Source: Peptoniphilus timonensis JC401 (lineage in GTDB: Bacteria > Bacillota > Clostridia > Tissierellales > Peptoniphilaceae). From it: a stretch of 59,092 nucleotides of DNA. The translations under genes and the position numbers were made by a program. A model generated the notes under the pieces. It saw nothing but the letters and a program-made list of their open reading frames with translations, ran no database searches and was not told the origin of the DNA. The stretch is from positions 72,965 through 132,056 of the forward strand of contig NZ_HE978594.1 in assembly GCF_000312025.1 (NCBI RefSeq). Reading direction: 5' to 3'. Position 1 is the stretch's first letter. The number at the start of each line of letters is the position of its first letter. Shown in pieces: positions 35,801 to 45,065 of the stretch.

Positions 35801-38800
35801 CTACTTTTTGGAAGTTTTTGTGTCCTTTTTGTGTAAATACAAAATAGTAACTAGTTTTTTCAACTCATCTAGAGGATATTTTAACTTTGTAAGAACAATT
35901 TCATTGTCTTCTCCCATGGAATAAGAAATATTTTCAAATTCATTATTTAATTCCATTATGGCATTAAGAGAAACTTCTCCCAGAACTTTAATTCTGTATT
36001 CTCCCTTTCTCTCAACAATTGATGACACTTTAGCCTTTTGTGCCTTGTTCTTTAAAAGGGCAATATCCATTAGATTAGAAACTTCATCAGGAAAATCTGA
36101 GAACCTGTCAATTAATTCTTCTACAAGATCAGAATAATCTTCTTCGCTTGAAATTACAGAAATCTTTTTATAAATTTCAAGTCTTGTCTTGTCATCTCCT
36201 ATATAATCTTTTGGTATAAAGGAATCTAATTTTAAATCAATTGTTGTGTCAATTTCTTCTTCCACTTCTATTCCCTTTAGTTTCATGACAGCATCTTTTA
36301 GATATTTCATATACAAGTCATAACCAATTTTTTCAATATGACCTGACTGTCTTGAACCAAGTATAGAACCAGACCCTCTTATTTCAAGATCTCTTTCTGC
36401 AATTTTGTGACCTGAACCAAACTCTGTGAATTCTTTTATTGCTTGAAGTCTTTTTTGAGCAACTTCAGAAATTGACGTTGACCTGTCATAGGTGAAATAA
36501 GCGTAGGCAATTCTTGAGGACCTTCCTATCCTTCCACGAAGCTGATAAAGTTGTGAAAGACCAAGTCTATTTGAATCTGTTATTATCATTGTGTTTGCAT
36601 TAGGTACATCCATTCCAGTTTCAATAATCGTTGAACAAACTAAGACGTCTATATTTCCCTCTATAAATTCAATCATAGTGTCTTCTAGAGCTTTTTCAGT
36701 CATTTGTCCATTTGCCATTGAAAAACTTGCTTCTGGCACAAGTTTTCTAAGTTCCAAAAGTTTATTTTCCATATTGGAAACCTTGTTATAGAGGAAGTAA
36801 ACTTGTCCGCCTCTCTCAATTTCTTTTAAAATTGCCTCACGAACCATTAAATTGTTGTATTCCAAGACATAAGTTTCAACGGGAAATCTCTCTTCAGGAG
36901 GCTCGTCTATTACTGACATATCTCTTATGCCAATCATTGACATTTGTAAAGTTCTTGGGATTGGCGTTGCTGTTAGAGTTAATGTATCTACATTTTCCTT
37001 TAACATCCTAAGTTTTTCCTTGTGGCGAACTCCAAATCTTTGCTCTTCATCTATAATTAAAAGTCCCAAGTCCTTAAATTTTACGTCCTTTGAAAGTAGT
37101 CTATGAGTCCCAACAATTATGTCAATATTTCCATCTTTTAGACCTTCTAGATCCATTTTTTGGTCCTTCTTGCTTCTGAATCTAGATAAAAGTCCTACAC
37201 CAACTGGGAAATTTTTAAATCTTTCTTTTATTGTATTGTAATGTTGTTGGGCAAGAATTGTTGTTGGAACTAAAATCGCAACTTGCTTTCCATCAAGAAT
37301 TGCCTTAAAGGCAGCACGAAGAGCAACTTCTGTCTTTCCATAACCAACATCGGCACATAAAAGTCTATCCATTGGAGATGGTTTTTCCATGTCTTCTTTT
37401 ATTTCTTCAGCAGACTTCAATTGTCCTGAAGTTTCTTCATAAATAAAAGCGTCTTCAAATTCCCTTTGATATTGAGTGTCCTCGCTAAAGGCAAAGCCCT
37501 TTGTATTTTCACGAGTTGCATAAAGTTTTATTAGCTCATCTGCCATATCGTCAATAGATTTTTTTGCTCGAGCCTTTTTCTTTTTCCAGTCAAGAGAATT
37601 TAATTTATTTACCTTTGGAGCTCTCTTACCTTCTTGAACATATTTGTAAATTGAATCCAAAGCCTCAATAGGAAGAAATAGTTTATCTTCTCCACCATAT
37701 TCTATTACAATGTAATCCTTTTTGGATTCCAGAAACTTCAAGTCTTGTTGTTCCAACATATTTTCCAACTCCATGAGCTTCATGGACAACATAATCCCCA
37801 ATTTTTAAATCTTCAAAATTCAAAGACTTTTTCTTAGAAGTTTTTTTCTTTTTCTTCTTTTTAGAAAAAGATCCATAAATCTCAGAATAATTTATAAAAA
37901 CTGTCTTCGAATCAGAAAATTCAATTCCATCATTTAAGGCTCCAGTAGTCACTACAATATTCGAAGAAATTTTTTCATTTTTAGTGTTTTTTGCCAAGTG
38001 TGGAGAATATCCAAGTTCCACTAAGTGATCAAATAATCTCTTTGATCTTTTTTCCGTTGCACCAAGAAGAATAACTTTAAAATTATTTTTTCCATAATAA
38101 TCTAAATCTTCTTTAAATAATTTTATCTTGGACATATAATTTGTGACACTTTTTACCTTGATGTTCACAATATCTTGTGGCTTAAACATTTTAGGCGGTT
38201 TTAAAAGAGCATTAAAAGTTATTAAAGTCTTTTCATTTAGCCTGTCGACTATGTCCTTATAATTATAAAAAGTATTTTCGTGTGCTTTTGTAACTTCTCC
38301 ATTTTCTATTAATATAGAAATTTTTTCTCCATTTGCAAGTTCAATTTCATCTTCTCTTTCAAGAATCCTAGTAGGCTCTTCAATTAAAAATAAAAAATCA
38401 TCTAAGTAGTCCAAGAAAGATCCTACTTCATCTTCATCAATATAAGGAAGGATTAAATCTTTATTTAAAATAGCTTCCTTATTTTCAAGTCTATCCACAT
38501 ATCTAAGGAATTTTTCATTAAGCCTATCCTTTTCCTTGCCAACTAATTTTGTCTTGGAAATATCTTTTTTTATTCTCTCTGCAATTTTTCCCTTGTCCCC
38601 ACTCTTTAAAATTAAATCTTCTATGGGATAGATTAAAATTTCATCCATCTTTTCTACGGATCTTTGACTTTCTATTTCAAAGGACCTAATAGAGTCAACC
38701 TCATCATCAAAGAGTTCTATTCTGTAATTTGCATCTTGTGTTCCAATATCAATTATCGAACCCCTAATAGAAAATTGACCAAGACCTTCAACACTTGGAA

Positions 38801-39284
38801 ATCTTTCGTAACCCATATCTAAAAGTTTATTTGGAAGATCTTCAAGAGATAAAACTTGTCCTTCTCTTATACTTATCTTGTAGCTTGAAAAAATTTCTGG
38901 CTTAGATATTTTTGCTGTTAGAGCATTTAAAGTTGTAACAACAATATTTGCCCTTCCGCTTGAAATTTCTGCCATAGCTTCAAGTCTTTTTTTTGTATTT
39001 TCTTTTGATTTTGAATCCCTATCATAGAAGAATACATCTTTTTCTGGATAATATACACAGTTTTCATCAGAAATACTTTCTATATCCTCATAAGCCTTTC
39101 TAGCAGTCATCCTGTTTTGTGAAATAAGACAAACTTTTTTCCCTTCATCACAAAATGCAGGCGCAAAAAGAGAGAGCACTGCCTCCTCTGAACCAAAGAC
39201 TGCAGTGTTCCTTGAATTTTTTATTGATTTATCTACTTCTTTAAAAGATTTTAGATTTTTTACACTATTGATTAAAAAATTCAA
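35801..39284 (-). CDS. mfd: Transcription-repair coupling factor, frame-broken
   Basis: ATP-dependent translocase that displaces stalled RNA polymerase and recruits UvrA. N-terminal half (39284 to ~37700): UvrB-like and RNA-polymerase-binding regions, ending GDYVVHEAHGVGKYVGTTRLEVSGIQK. C-terminal half: Walker A in LCADVGYGKTEVALRAAF, DEEQRFGV (DEEQ box), TATPIPRTLQMSM, and the TRG motif and C-terminal domain. The two halves join as IQKDYIVIEYGGEDKLFLP if the A5 run at 37719-37723 loses one A, so an overcalled base is likely. Follows pth closely. Confidence 0.93.
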
Positions 39285-39871: not shown

Positions 39872-40826
39872 TTATTCAAACATTTCGCTAACTGATGTTG
39901 ATGTGTTGATCCTTCTAATTGCTGATGCAAAAATTGGAGCAACAGACACAATATCAATTTTATCTATTTTCTTTTCTTCTGGAAGTTCAATTGTATCAGT
40001 GATTACAAATTTTTCAAGAGATGATTTTTCTAATCTTTCAATAGCTGGTCCTGATAAAACTCCGTGAGTTGCAGCACCATAAACATATTTTGCTCCCCTT
40101 GCCTTTAAAGCATCAGCAGCCTTAGTAATTGTTCCTGCTGTATCTGCAATGTCATCAACAAGAATTACTGACTTGCCATCAACATCACCAATAATATTCA
40201 TTACTTCAGATACATTTGCCTTTGGTCTTCTCTTTTCAATAATAGCTATAGGAAGATTTAATTCGTTGGCAAATTTTCTTGTTCTTGTAACTCCACCTAA
40301 GTCTGGAGAAACAACAACAAAATCATCTTCATTTACAATATCTTTAAAATATCTTGCAAGATAAGGAACTGCAGTAAGATGGTCAACTGGAATATCAAAA
40401 TAACCTTGAATTTGTCCTGCGTGAAGATCCATTGCAACAACTCTATCTGCTCCAGCCTTAGTTAAAAGATCAGCAACAAGTTTTGAAGTAATAGGTTCTC
40501 TTGCCTTAGTCTTTCTATCTTGTCTTGCATATCCATAATAAGGAATAACTGCATTAATTCTACCAGCAGAAGCTCTTTTTAGTGCATCAATTAAAATTAA
40601 AAGTTCCATTAAATTGTCATTAACTGGTGAAGAAGTAGATTGGATAACAAAAAACATCCTTACCTCTTACAGAAACTCCAATATCAATTGAAATTTCTCC
40701 ATCAGAAAAAGTTGAAACGCTGCAAGCTCCCTTTTCAATTCCCAAGTTTTCACAAATCTTATCTACAAGACTTAAATTGGAATTTCCTGTAAATACTACA
40801 ATATCTCCATTTACTACTGTACTCAT
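39872..40826 (-). CDS. prs: Ribose-phosphate pyrophosphokinase, frame-broken
   Basis: Makes PRPP for nucleotides, His and Trp. Start ATG at 40826 after GGAGGACAGTGTAAA. N-terminal part up to VRGKDVF; C-terminal part contains [45 protein letters not shown] and the PRPP loop [14 protein letters not shown]. The frame breaks at the A6 run 40649-40654: five A restores [18 protein letters not shown]. Overcall in an essential gene, so sequencing error is most likely. Confidence 0.94.
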
Positions 40827-40840
40827 TTTACACTGTCCTC

Positions 40841-42220
40841 CTATTTGACAAATCCTTTTCTCTCAACCCATCCATCTATATTTTTTTGAGGTGCTCTCTC
40901 AAGAGAAAGTTGACCCTTCAAAACATTTTTAGTAATAGTAGAACCTGCAGCAATATAAGCCTCATCTTCTACTTCAATTGGAGCAACTAAATTGGAATTA
41001 GAACCAATAAAGGCATTATCCCCAACTTTTGCCCTGAACTTTTCTCTTCCATTGTAGTTTACAAAAACTACTCCACAACCGATGTTGACACCAGATCCCA
41101 CATCAGCATCACCAATATAAGCAAGATGACTCATCTTGGAACCATCTCCCACATTGGAATTTTTAACTTCAACAAAATTTCCAATCTTACAATTTTCCCC
41201 AACTTTAGAATTTGGTCTAAGGTGAGCGAAAGGTCCAACTGTAGTTCCCTTTCCTATGGAAGAATCCTCAATTTCAGATGATCTAATAATTACATATTCT
41301 CCAATTGTTGAATTTTTAATTGTGGAAGAATAAATTTCTGTGCCTTCTTTTATTACAGAATTTCTGTCAATGCGAGTGCCAGGATAAATCATGACATCTC
41401 TATCTATTTTTGCGCCATATTCAATATAAGTGGACTTAGGATCAATTATCCCAACACCATTTATCATATACTCTTTATTTATTTTCTTTTGCAAAATTTC
41501 TGCTGCAACAGATAATTCATATCTAGAATTGACACCTAGAATTTCTCTAGTATCTCTAAGTTTAAAGGAATCAACCTTTTTGCCTTCCTGAACTAGTATA
41601 CCAAGAGTATCAGTTATATACATTTCATTTGCCGCATTGTCTGTATCAATTTTTGAAAGAGCTGACTTCAGAGAAGAACCCTTGAAAGCAAAAATACCAG
41701 AATTAATTTCACGAATTAACTTTTGTTTTTCGCTGGCATCCTTTTCTTCTACTATTGCAACTACATTTGCATTTTCATCCCTTACAATTCGTCCATAATT
41801 TGTAGGGTCTTTCATATCAGCAGATAAAACTGTTATATCATTATTTCTCTCTTCGTGATATTTCAAAAAGCAAGAAATAGTTGAGCTAGAAATAATTGGA
41901 GTATCTCCATTTAAAATTATAACTGTATCTTCATCTTCTATTTTATCAAGAGCATTCATAACAGCATAGCCAGTACCATAAGGTACATTATCGCCAATTG
42001 GTTGCTCAATAAACTCTACATCTTTTTCTTCTTTAAAGGACTCACGAACTTTTTCCTTGTTGTGTCCCACAACCACAAGATTTTTCTCAACTTGAGAATG
42101 CTTGCAAGAATTTAGGACATAAAAAAGCATGGGTCTTCCAAGAATTTCATGAAGTACCTTTGGTTTTTTGGACTTCATTCTCGTTCCCTCTCCTGCTGCC
42201 AGGATAACTGAAACTTTCAT
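40841..42220 (-). CDS. glmU: Bifunctional UDP-GlcNAc pyrophosphorylase/GlcN-1-P acetyltransferase
   Basis: 459 residues making UDP-GlcNAc for the cell wall. N-terminal uridyltransferase with LAAGEGTRMKSKKPKVLHEILGRPM and VIILNGDTPII; C-terminal left-handed beta-helix with hexapeptide repeats (IGEYVIIRSSEIEDSSIG, VGPFAHLRPNSKVGENCKIGNFVEVKNS, SHLAYIGDADVG). First gene of the glmU-prs-pth-mfd-prsA run. Confidence 0.96.
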   Translation of the reverse strand: MKVSVILAAGEGTRMKSKKPKVLHEILGRPMLFYVLNSCKHSQVEKNLVVVGHNKEKVRESFKEEKDVEFIEQPIGDNVPYGTGYAVMNALDKIEDEDTVIILNGDTPIISSSTISCFLKYHEERNNDITVLSADMKDPTNYGRIVRDENANVVAIVEEKDASEKQKLIREINSGIFAFKGSSLKSALSKIDTDNAANEMYITDTLGILVQEGKKVDSFKLRDTREILGVNSRYELSVAAEILQKKINKEYMINGVGIIDPKSTYIEYGAKIDRDVMIYPGTRIDRNSVIKEGTEIYSSTIKNSTIGEYVIIRSSEIEDSSIGKGTTVGPFAHLRPNSKVGENCKIGNFVEVKNSNVGDGSKMSHLAYIGDADVGSGVNIGCGVVFVNYNGREKFRAKVGDNAFIGSNSNLVAPIEVEDEAYIAAGSTITKNVLKGQLSLERAPQKNIDGWVERKGFVK

Positions 42221-42476: not shown

Positions 42477-42505
42477 TTGACAAACAAAATTTTAAATAGT
42501 ATAGT
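42477..42505 (+). promoter_or_regulatory. Promoter of the cys leader-cysK-cysE operon
   Basis: TTGACA (42477-42482), 17-base spacer, TATAGT (42500-42505). The transcript starts about 20 bases before the leader peptide ATG. The stretch 42279-42476 holds nothing else I can recognise. Confidence 0.87.
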
Positions 42506-42531
42506 CGAAACATATTGATGAGGCGATAAAA

Positions 42532-42615
42532 ATGAAAAACCTAAATAACTTTAAAAATTTCACAAGCCAAGCATTCTGTTGTTGTTCTATAAAAAATTTT
42601 ATAGGACTTATTTGA
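42532..42615 (+). CDS. Cysteine-rich leader peptide, candidate attenuator
   Basis: 27 codons, too short for routine gene calling: MKNLNNFKNFTSQAF, then three consecutive TGT cysteine codons (42577-42585), then SIKNFIGLI and TGA. A ribosome site (GAGG, eight bases before ATG) and a consensus promoter precede it; a strong terminator (42663-42693) lies between it and cysK. This is the layout of amino-acid operon leader peptides: charged Cys-tRNA scarcity would stall the ribosome on the Cys run and change RNA folding. The downstream genes make cysteine, matching the codon run. The mechanism is inference; the ORF, codons and terminator are seen. Confidence 0.8.
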   Translation: MKNLNNFKNFTSQAFCCCSIKNFIGLI

Positions 42616-42662
42616 ATGTGAATCAATATTTTAAACCTTTTATAAAATTTTAAGAAAGCTTT
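42588..42662 (+). promoter_or_regulatory. Alternative RNA hairpins of the cys leader
   Basis: Just past the Cys codons CTATAAAA / TTTTATAG (about 42587-42604) can pair with each other. The same bases can instead pair with the downstream TATAAAATTTT (about 42640-42655). These mutually exclusive pairings could switch the terminator, though I could not see an antiterminator that directly captures its 5' arm. Confidence 0.5.
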
Positions 42663-42693
42663 AAGAGTATATGATTTCATATACTCTTTTTTT
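42663..42693 (+). terminator. Attenuator terminator before cysK
   Basis: Perfect 12-base stem AAGAGTATATGA (42663-42674) / TCATATACTCTT (42677-42688) with a two-base loop and a T-run to 42693. It lies between the leader peptide and the cysK ribosome site. Confidence 0.92.
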
Positions 42694-42729
42694 ATTATCT
42701 ATTTATTTAGAATTACTCAGGAGGAAAAA

Positions 42730-43620
42730 ATGACAAAATTATTAGAAACAGTTGGAAAATCAAAATTAGTGCAATTAGAAAATATTGGAAATGGAAAAAT
42801 CTTCGTAAAAGTAGAAAAATCTAATCCAGCAGGATCTGTTAAAGATAGAGCTGCCCTTTACATGATAAAAGGAGCAATAGAAGACGGATCCTTAAAAGAA
42901 GGTATGGAAATAGTTGAACCTACAAGTGGTAACACAGGTATTGCTATTGCCATGATTGGTCGTGCTCTAGGATATAAGGTTAATATTGTAATGCCTTCTT
43001 CAATGTCAATTGAAAGAAGAAATTTAATCGAAGCCTTTGGTGCAAACTTAATATTAACTGGTGAAGGTGGAATGCAAGCTGCTGTAGATAAAGCTAAAGA
43101 ACTTGTAGCTACAGGAAACTATTTTATGCCAAACCAATTTGAAAATAAATACAATGCCCTTGCTCACGAAGAGACAACTGGTCCAGAAATCTATGAAAAT
43201 CTTAAAGAAATCTCTGGATTTATTGCAGGAATTGGAACTGGTGGAACTGTAAGTGGTGTTGGAAGATATCTAAAATCTCAAGATGAAAAAATAAAAGTTT
43301 GGGGACTTGAACCAGATGAATCAGCTCTCCTTACAAGAGGAGAAGCTGGAATCCACAAGATTCAAGGAATCGGCGCAAACTTTATTCCTGGAGCTTTAGA
43401 CACAAAAATTCTTGATAAAACAATAACTGTAAAATCAGATGAAGCTATCGAAATGGCTAAAAGACTTTCAAGAGAAGAAGGACTTCTTCTTGGTATATCT
43501 GCTGGTGCCAATGTTGTCGGTGCACTTAAAATGCAAGAGGAAATTGGTGGAAATATTGTAACAGTTGCACCTGACACAGCAGAAAGGTATATGTCCACTG
43601 AATTATTTAAAAATGAATAA
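42730..43620 (+). CDS. cysK: Cysteine synthase A (O-acetylserine sulfhydrylase)
   Basis: Makes L-cysteine from O-acetylserine and sulfide with PLP. 296 residues; PLP lysine in [13 protein letters not shown] (near residue 41), [11 protein letters not shown], and [11 protein letters not shown]-type loop in [18 protein letters not shown]. Start after CAGGAGGAAAAA. Its stop overlaps the cysE start by eight bases. Controlled by the attenuator region upstream. Confidence 0.96.
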
Positions 43621-44164
43621 TTTTTTTAAAAGATTAAAAGAATACGGGGAATTTATATTAAAAAAAGACCCTGCCTGTAAAAGTTTATTTGAAGCAATTT
43701 TCATGTATCCTATTGTTTCTTGCATGATTAGGCACAGAATTGCTCACTACTTTTACGAAAAAAATCACACAAGTCTTGCCAGGTGGATTTCTCAGAGAGC
43801 TCGCAAAAAAACTGGAATTGAAATCCATCCTGGTGCAAAAATTGGCAAAAATCTCTTTATTGACCACGGCATGGCTGTGGTCATTGGAGAAACTGCCGAA
43901 GTTGGAGACAACTGTCATATGTACCACAACATAACACTAGGTGGAACTGGAAATGAAAAAGAAAAGAAAAGACATCCCACAGTTGGAAACAACGTAATAA
44001 TTGGAACTGGTGCAACAGTTCTTGGTCCAGTAGTAATTGGTGAAGGAGCAAAAATAGGAGCAGGTGCTCTTGTCTTAACAGATATCCCTGCGAATTCAAC
44101 TGCTGTTGGAGTCCCAGCTAAAGTCGTAAAATTTCACGATCCAAGTGAAAATAAGTTCCACTAA
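43613..44164 (+). CDS. cysE: Serine O-acetyltransferase
   Basis: Makes O-acetylserine from serine and acetyl-CoA, the substrate of CysK. The start at 43613 ([14 protein letters not shown]) overlaps the cysK stop by eight bases, so translation is coupled; the longer upstream frame lacks a ribosome site. 183 residues: helical N-terminus with [35 protein letters not shown], then left-handed beta-helix with [28 protein letters not shown]. Short form lacking the long C-terminal tail. Confidence 0.95.
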
Positions 44165-44234: not shown

Positions 44235-45065
44235 ATGTTTAAAATAGGTCCCCATCTTTCTACATCAAAGGGCTTTGCAAATATGGGAAAAGATGCTCTC
44301 AAAATTTCTGCCACAACATTTCAATTTTTTTCACGAAACCCGAGAGGTTCCAAAATGAAAAAGTTAGATGAAAAAGACATAAAAGACTTGATGAAAATAG
44401 CAAGAGAAAATAAATTTGGACCACTTTTGGCACACGCACCCTACACCCTAAATCCTTGTTCTTCAACAGAGAGCGTGAGAGAATTTGCAAATTTAGTCCT
44501 TGCATAAGACCTTGAAAGACTAAAATACTTTAAGAACACTTACTACAATCTCCATCCCGGTTCTCACACAGGTCTTGGAACACAGACTGCCATAGAAATT
44601 ATTTCTCAACAACTAAATTTAGTTTTAAGAGAAGAACAAGATACCATAGTCCTTTTAGAAACCATGGCTGGCAAAGGCACAGAAGTGGGATCAAGATTTG
44701 AAGAAATTGGAAAAATAATAGAGAAAGTTAACTTAAAAGAAAAAGTTGGAGTCTGCCTAGATACTTGTCACGTCCACGAAGCAGGTTACGACATAGTAAA
44801 TGACTTAGAGGTTGTTCTTGAAGAATTTGATGAATTTATAGGTCTTGATAAACTCTATGCCATTCACTTAAATGACAGCAAAAATGAAAGAGGTGCTCAC
44901 AAGGACAGACATGAAGTTATCGGTCAAGGTAAAATTGGACTTAATGCAATAGAAAGAATTATAAATCATGAAAAATTAAAAGACCTTCCCTTTTACCTAG
45001 AAACACCACAAGACTTAGAAGGTCACAAAAAAGAAATAGAACTATTAAAAAAACTCCGCAAATAA
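44235..45065 (+). pseudogene. nfo: Deoxyribonuclease IV (endonuclease IV), interrupted by an in-frame stop
   Basis: AP endonuclease of base-excision repair. About 276 residues in one frame, with a TAA at 44505-44507 after FANLVLA; translation continues in the same frame as [80 protein letters not shown] and [11 protein letters not shown], with the zinc-binding His, Glu and Asp residues intact. The codon is probably a mutated or miscalled GAA (typical AEDLERLKY). Because only one substitution separates it from a normal gene, it may be functional in the organism. Start follows AAGGAGGTAAT. Confidence 0.85.

Follow-up and report, generated by a model that had tools for sequence, protein, structure and literature searches.

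A conserved leader with consecutive cysteine codons upstream of cysK-cysE in Peptoniphilus, a candidate ribosome-mediated attenuator

The cysK-cysE locus and its leader

The stretch of DNA analysed here (the window) comprises 59,092 nucleotides of the Peptoniphilus timonensis JC401 genome and contains cysK and cysE, two genes which, based on their NCBIfam assignments, make cysteine. They are preceded by a short leader, and the features of the locus are the following.

42477 to 42505, plus strand: promoter-like site of the sigma-70 type, TTGACA-17-TATAGT (11 of 12 consensus letters)
42520 to 42523, plus strand: Shine-Dalgarno (SD) sequence GAGG of the leader ORF
42532 to 42615, plus strand: leader peptide ORF, ATG at 42532, 27 codons and a UGA stop (42613-42615), translation MKNLNNFKNFTSQAFCCCSIKNFIGLI
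42571 to 42576, plus strand: region 1, GCATTC, 5' strand of the outer helix, immediately 5' of the Cys codons
42577 to 42585, plus strand: consecutive Cys codons TGT TGT TGT, the putative stall site
42584 to 42607, plus strand: inner hairpin, GTTCTATA...TATAGGAC, overlapping the third Cys codon
42614 to 42619, plus strand: 3' strand of the outer helix, GAATGT, overlapping the stop codon; region 2 begins here
42614 to 42630, plus strand: region 2, candidate antiterminator strand, able to pair with the terminator 5' arm, the loop and the loop-side 3' arm (own pairing -11.0 kcal/mol; permutation and shuffle tests below)
42663 to 42688, plus strand: regions 3 and 4, intrinsic terminator with an 11-bp stem and loop ATTT, then a T-run
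42689 to 42693, plus strand: remainder of the terminator U-tract
42719 to 42724, plus strand: AGGAGG ribosome site of cysK
42730 to 43620, plus strand: cysK, cysteine synthase A (TIGR01139, 368 bits, cut-off 351)
43613 to 44164, plus strand: cysE, serine O-acetyltransferase (TIGR01172, 216 bits, cut-off 211)

The start of cysE is most likely the ATG at 43613, within the 3' end of cysK. On the side opposite to cysK the leader is flanked by a divergent gene (40841-42220, minus strand), which we take to be glmU-like. Three housekeeping-like genes in the window (37683-39284, 39872-40826 and 44235-45065), presumably mfd-, prs- and nfo-like, are represented by split or shortened ORFs, pointing to either sequencing errors in the window assembly or real breaks.

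A preliminary description of the locus had listed the promoter, the GAGG site, the 27-codon ORF with its three TGT codons and the two genes that follow, all of which were found in the window sequence. The terminator that it placed before cysK is also present with its T-run, but the stem is 11 bp long and not 12. The hairpin that it described as overlapping the Cys codons exists and overlaps the third TGT, but it is merely the tip of a larger, two-helix hairpin. Two parts were absent from that description, namely the outer helix, which encloses the Cys codons, and the alternative pairing of its 3' strand with the terminator.

Several of these elements are of a common kind. The scans for promoters and terminators prove nothing by themselves, because in this region neither promoter-like sites (10 found, mean of shuffles 11.0) nor terminator-like sites (2 found, mean of shuffles 1.7) exceed the number expected by chance. 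Similarly, a run of Cys codons alone means little, because TGYTGYTGY is common in the same genome, with 124 + 96 = 220 places compared to 35 + 32 for the reversed pattern. Judged from the sequence comparisons, it is conservation that raises the leader above chance, as 17 cysK leaders retain its core. G120, a second genome of this species, has an identical stretch from GAGG to region 2 except for one synonymous base.

The leader did not match a known RNA family. No Rfam 15 family reached the gathering score in it, and relaxing the E value to 5 added just two weak matches, both to eukaryotic families and on the minus strand. With this limit the T-box covariance model RF00230 had no match between 42440 and 42760. 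In the loci of 17 relatives (L017-L033) two tRNAs alone reached the gathering score. A T-box leader does lie at the left edge of the window, as had been described (RF00230, 18-247, minus strand, 125 bits). The genome as a whole has 14 T-box matches, 10 of them over the cut-off, yet none at the cysK-cysE operon. The leader represents a conserved RNA motif without a counterpart in Rfam 15 at the curators' threshold.

Conservation and distribution of the leader

CysK was searched for in 130 genomes of the family and matched in 104 of them, while 26 had no match. Nineteen of the 104 had weak matches alone and were left out of the upstream comparison, which covered 87 loci from 85 genomes (30 loci read, 57 scanned by script). 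The preliminary description had proposed searching upstream of cysK in this family for short ORFs with Cys runs and a terminator; such a homologous leader was found in 17 genomes, including all 14 of the genus Peptoniphilus and three others (G085, G129 and G070), and in each of the 17 loci a cysE match lay 3' of cysK. A pattern scan of 249 genomes of the order matched 16 genomes, again with 14 of 14 in the own genus; the 17th genome is G070, whose TGC codon falls outside the scan pattern. A relaxed DNA pattern searched against the collection genome_contigs returned 16 stretches, 13 of them from Peptoniphilus and one each from Mediannikoviicoccus vaginalis, Ndiopella massiliensis and an Anabaena. 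The last was rejected as a leader, since it lies in repetitive DNA and resembles a chance match. A further search (R1), with stricter filters by which weak matches were lost, matched 5 of 391 genomes of the class, four of the own genus and G129.

No equivalent leader was detected by the script scan upstream of 70 other related cysK loci (for L106 only about 240 bases upstream were covered), and G106, G108 and G054 are examples of genomes with related cysK genes that have no leader. The leader is therefore lineage-specific. On a CysK tree of 30 rows its distribution needs two changes (bootstrap 5-95 % range 2-3, shuffled mean 10.2). The sequence of G085 (Mediannikoviicoccus vaginalis, L008/L055), which belongs to another genus, falls inside Peptoniphilus on this tree, thus suggesting transfer; its leader is Peptoniphilus-like and its CysK is 91 % identical to that of the window. 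The leader and cysK of G085 were, as judged by these sequences, probably acquired horizontally.

All 17 leaders keep two to three in-frame Cys codons (TGT or TGC) with an in-frame ATG 12-17 codons upstream. The run is CC instead of CCC in L020 and L023, and TGT TGC TGT in L021. Loss of the Cys run or of the ribosome site in relatives had been named beforehand as evidence against a ribosome-mediated attenuator. The Cys codons were retained throughout, and a site of the GAGG, AGGAG or AAGGAG type precedes the ATG or TTG start in 15 of the 17 leaders, but it is weak in L020 and L023. In 16 leaders a promoter-like site lies 64-79 nt 5' of the first Cys codon (for L022 the best candidate is elsewhere), and a terminator stem of 10-13 pairs (G-U allowed) with a T-run is present in all 17. 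When the chance occurrence of such an ORF was assessed under a fixed SD rule, five of seven representatives passed, whereas shuffled sequences passed in 0-4 of 2000 cases per row. L020 and L021 failed, L021 having AGGAG before a TTG start. As the rows are related, the combined product of the per-row values was not used.

In all leaders the stop codon follows the first Cys codon at a distance of 18-36 nt, between the 3' arm of the inner hairpin and region 2, and it is of two sorts: a UGA over region 2, 36 nt after the first Cys codon (11 rows), or a UAG within the 3' arm of the inner hairpin, 18-27 nt after it (six rows). Changing a single base of the hairpin loop can swap the two. Most rows encode an F-C-C-C-S core, and the residues outside the Cys core drift in the diverged rows. 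In the alignment it is the Cys codons and the RNA that look to be constrained, rather than the whole peptide.

Other short Cys-rich ORFs were also considered. Scans for leaders of the MCCCC type gave 56 places in the class (30 examined) and 25 in the order (all examined), and one of the 55 examined places had a CysK match in its flank (L206, genome G060). In 12 of the 70 leaderless loci (L019, L086, L087, L090, L104, L109, L119, L121, L125, L131, L133 and L141) a short ORF with CC or CxC was present, and five of these (L090, L119, L019, L121 and L104) were re-examined. L019 was rejected as an antisense frame of 119 aa is open on the strand opposite to the stretch, L104 as there is no terminator 3' of the ORF, and L090 and L119 as they have no SD-ATG-Cys run of the kind found in the Peptoniphilus leaders. 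In L093 a TGY run lies outside any listed ORF. G060, of genus g10 in the same family, has a poly-Cys ORF before cysK that is unlike the Peptoniphilus leader (MCCCCCRTEFNQFNNFELKSYGNRAIDNTFC; L121, minus strand, approximately 271-177, and L206). It begins MCCCCCRTEFNQ..., has an AGAGG site and is followed by a short CTAGC/GCTAG hairpin and a T-run. The sequence hints that poly-Cys leaders before cysK may have arisen more than once. Two leaderless loci of genus g36 (L017 and L018) share a similar stretch, GGGTATAT...ACTATAGTAACTT, in the last approximately 90 bases before cysK, possibly another control element.

Alternative pairings and the proposed mechanism

The outer helix is formed by GCATTC, just 5' of the first Cys codon, and GAATGT at the stop codon. 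Over the 17 leaders, which represent 11 distinct cores, 97.2 % of the cells of both helices are paired. For the inner hairpin (seven counted pairs) this is 100 % in the 11 distinct rows, with five pairs invariant, two changed on one side and none on both. In the outer helix 93.9 % of cells are paired and two of the six pairs show changes on both sides. The covariation score of structure 1:2 was 0.204, compared to a shuffled mean of 0.126 with none of 500 shuffles as high and at most 0.081 for slid versions. The two pairs changed on both sides compare to a shuffled mean of 0.4 (13 of 500 shuffles as high), and a slide of +2 likewise yields two such pairs. The covariation test leans toward the structure, because the alignment was fitted to this hairpin (1:2). 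The internal-loop strand facing the Cys codons, CTNNTT, is kept in 17 of 17 rows, including the six whose ORF has come to its stop by that point. Between region 2 and the terminator there is a linker that varies both in length and in sequence.

Pairing of region 2 with the terminator was compared between own and swapped partners for nine types chosen from the 17 rows, and permutations were made with six diverged types. The mean was -10.8 kcal/mol for own and -7.6 kcal/mol for swapped partners, and 2 of 720 permutations, the true one counted, were as good as the true pairing. In the shuffle test at most 8 of 500 shuffles were as good in six of the nine types, the weaker rows being L008 (18/500), L016 (35/500) and L022 (79/500). 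A foreign partner was better than the own one for region 2 of L004 with the L023 terminator and for region 2 of L022 with the L016 terminator (both -13.6). In L020 and L023 region 2 and the terminator loop have both changed, and 10-11 contiguous pairs are kept. Region 2 is, by these comparisons, co-varying with the terminator as a predicted alternative pairing.

The predicted layout is that of classical attenuation, with structures 1:2, 2:3 and 3:4; the regulatory codons lie at region 1, and the leader ORF stops at or ahead of region 2. We consider it highly probable that the leader is a classical ribosome-mediated transcription attenuator of cysK-cysE that senses cysteine shortage. Transcription would start downstream of 42477-42505 and a ribosome would translate the 27-codon leader. 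With ample Cys-tRNA the ribosome would pass the three Cys codons and reach the stop, where it would cover region 2 (42614-42630), or it would depart and 1:2 would reform; in either case the terminator (42663-42688) would end transcription. With scarce Cys-tRNA the ribosome would stall on the Cys codons and cover GCATTC (42571-42576), so that region 2 would be available to the 5' arm and loop of the terminator as a pairing partner ahead of stem closure, and readthrough into cysK-cysE would follow.

Ribosome-mediated attenuation had already been proposed in the preliminary description, along with folding of both RNA states. With its 17 conserved leaders and the 1:2/2:3/3:4 layout it is still the best reading, but folding with a masked ribosome was not clean. 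The complete terminator was favoured in every modelled state in 16 of 17 rows, L008 being near balance. The switch would have to be kinetic if the attenuation model is right. When 4 nt of the terminator were hidden, stalling at the first Cys codon was more antiterminating than a ribosome at the stop in 14 of 17 rows (L014, L016 and L020, all with a UAG stop, failed) and more antiterminating than free RNA in 13 of 17 (L004, L005, L012 and L021 failed). For the window row, L004, the values with 4 nt hidden were +1.2 (stall at Cys1), -3.1 (free) and +1.6 (stop) kcal/mol, the stall being less antiterminating than the free RNA and the freed hairpin strands pairing with the linker; with 6 nt hidden the comparison of stall and stop also failed in this row (-1.1 vs. 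-1.4). As long as the terminator is incomplete, the free RNA of many rows can accommodate 1:2 alongside part of 2:3, and in free-RNA folding 1:2 excludes 2:3 just partially.

This behaviour of the free RNA would also suit a hairpin that senses tRNA-Cys, in a T-box-like manner, or a metabolite directly and acts on the terminator without translation. Two conserved helices flank the internal loop that holds the Cys codons, an arrangement like that of the specifier codon in a T-box, and the opposite strand CTNNTT persists even in the six rows where the frame has ended. A T-box, however, needs UGGN (TGG) for the acceptor end of the tRNA, and in the window row TGG is absent from the interval that begins 25 nt 5' of the ATG and extends to the end of the terminator, likewise in 14 of the 17 leaders. 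Furthermore, neither a T-box nor another bacterial Rfam family was matched in the leader at E up to 5, the loop is one codon shorter in L020 and L023, and the conserved in-frame ATG would be needless for a pure RNA sensor. Direct sensing thus appears very unlikely. We regard as similarly improbable a partial terminator that acts constitutively and is accompanied by a small ORF with no regulatory role, both conserved through shared ancestry alone. The close relatedness of most rows (11 distinct cores among the 17) and the unclean in silico switching are in its favour, but the core and the pairings are kept at 67-71 % CysK identity (L020-L023) while the linker varies. There is only a slim chance that the two-helix hairpin is itself a sensor acting alongside ribosome stalling, with uncharged tRNA-Cys or a sulfur metabolite bound in the loop where the Cys codons face CTNNTT. 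The least probable reading is an arrest peptide whose nascent chain would itself halt the ribosome once cysteine or some other ligand is bound, as the F-C-C-C-S core of most ORFs might suggest, but the flanks of the Cys run differ in diverged rows (AFCCCSIKNF, AFCCPIYK, TLCCCSIKEI and FLCCCSMTFA) and the C-terminus is altered by a one-base loop change (L013 vs. L014).

Comparison with known systems

Ribosome-mediated attenuation, the reading we prefer and consider very likely, is a mechanism of the textbook kind, and its probable use for cysteine in another branch of bacteria is the new part. The preliminary description had named leader peptides with amino-acid runs for the his, trp and leu operons of Proteobacteria and T-boxes as the usual control of such genes in low-GC Gram-positives, but His leaders (PMC2965389, PMC9413887) and a Leu leader (PMC5794164) are described for Firmicutes. 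As the preliminary description had anticipated, no Cys leader peptide in Firmicutes or Peptoniphilus was found in a literature search that covered mostly papers available without subscription.

The Firmicutes His attenuators resemble the present leader in having runs of regulatory codons and a predicted terminator and antiterminator, and they include examples from Peptostreptococcaceae (PMC9413887, PMC2965389). They control histidine genes, however, and the sole mention of Peptoniphilus in PMC9413887 is a HisR site before yuiF. The ilv-leu attenuator of Staphylococcus aureus, for which there is mutant and depletion evidence, is likewise a leader-peptide attenuator in a low-GC Gram-positive bacterium, but it concerns leucine, other genes and another lineage than the cysK-cysE leader of Peptoniphilus (PMC5794164).

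Cys leader peptides have been described for mycobacteria and their relatives, and attenuation has been proposed (PMC1262725). These share with the present leader a poly-Cys short ORF 5' of cysteine genes. According to the same source the Mycobacterium leaders have no conserved terminator hairpin, whereas the Peptoniphilus leaders have an intrinsic terminator. The actinobacterial cys short ORFs are leaderless according to the title of Canestrari 2020 (cited in PMC13236596), whereas an SD sequence is found in 15 of the 17 rows here.

The host lineage of the Peptoniphilus leader belongs to the Bacillota. The leader offers a compact candidate for a cysteine-responsive switch. By description, it is similar to the uORFC-8-2 motif before cysS in Rhodobacterales, for which ribosome-mediated attenuation was predicted and which has a short ORF, tandem Cys codons at approximately codons 14-15 within the first of two stems, and a terminator stem (PMC8632094). 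That motif belongs to Alphaproteobacteria, has cysS as its target and is dominated by UGC codons, whereas the Peptoniphilus leader has cysK-cysE as its target, UGU codons and a co-varying candidate antiterminator pairing. Attenuation at Cys codons would thereby be extended from Actinobacteria and Rhodobacterales to a lineage of Firmicutes.
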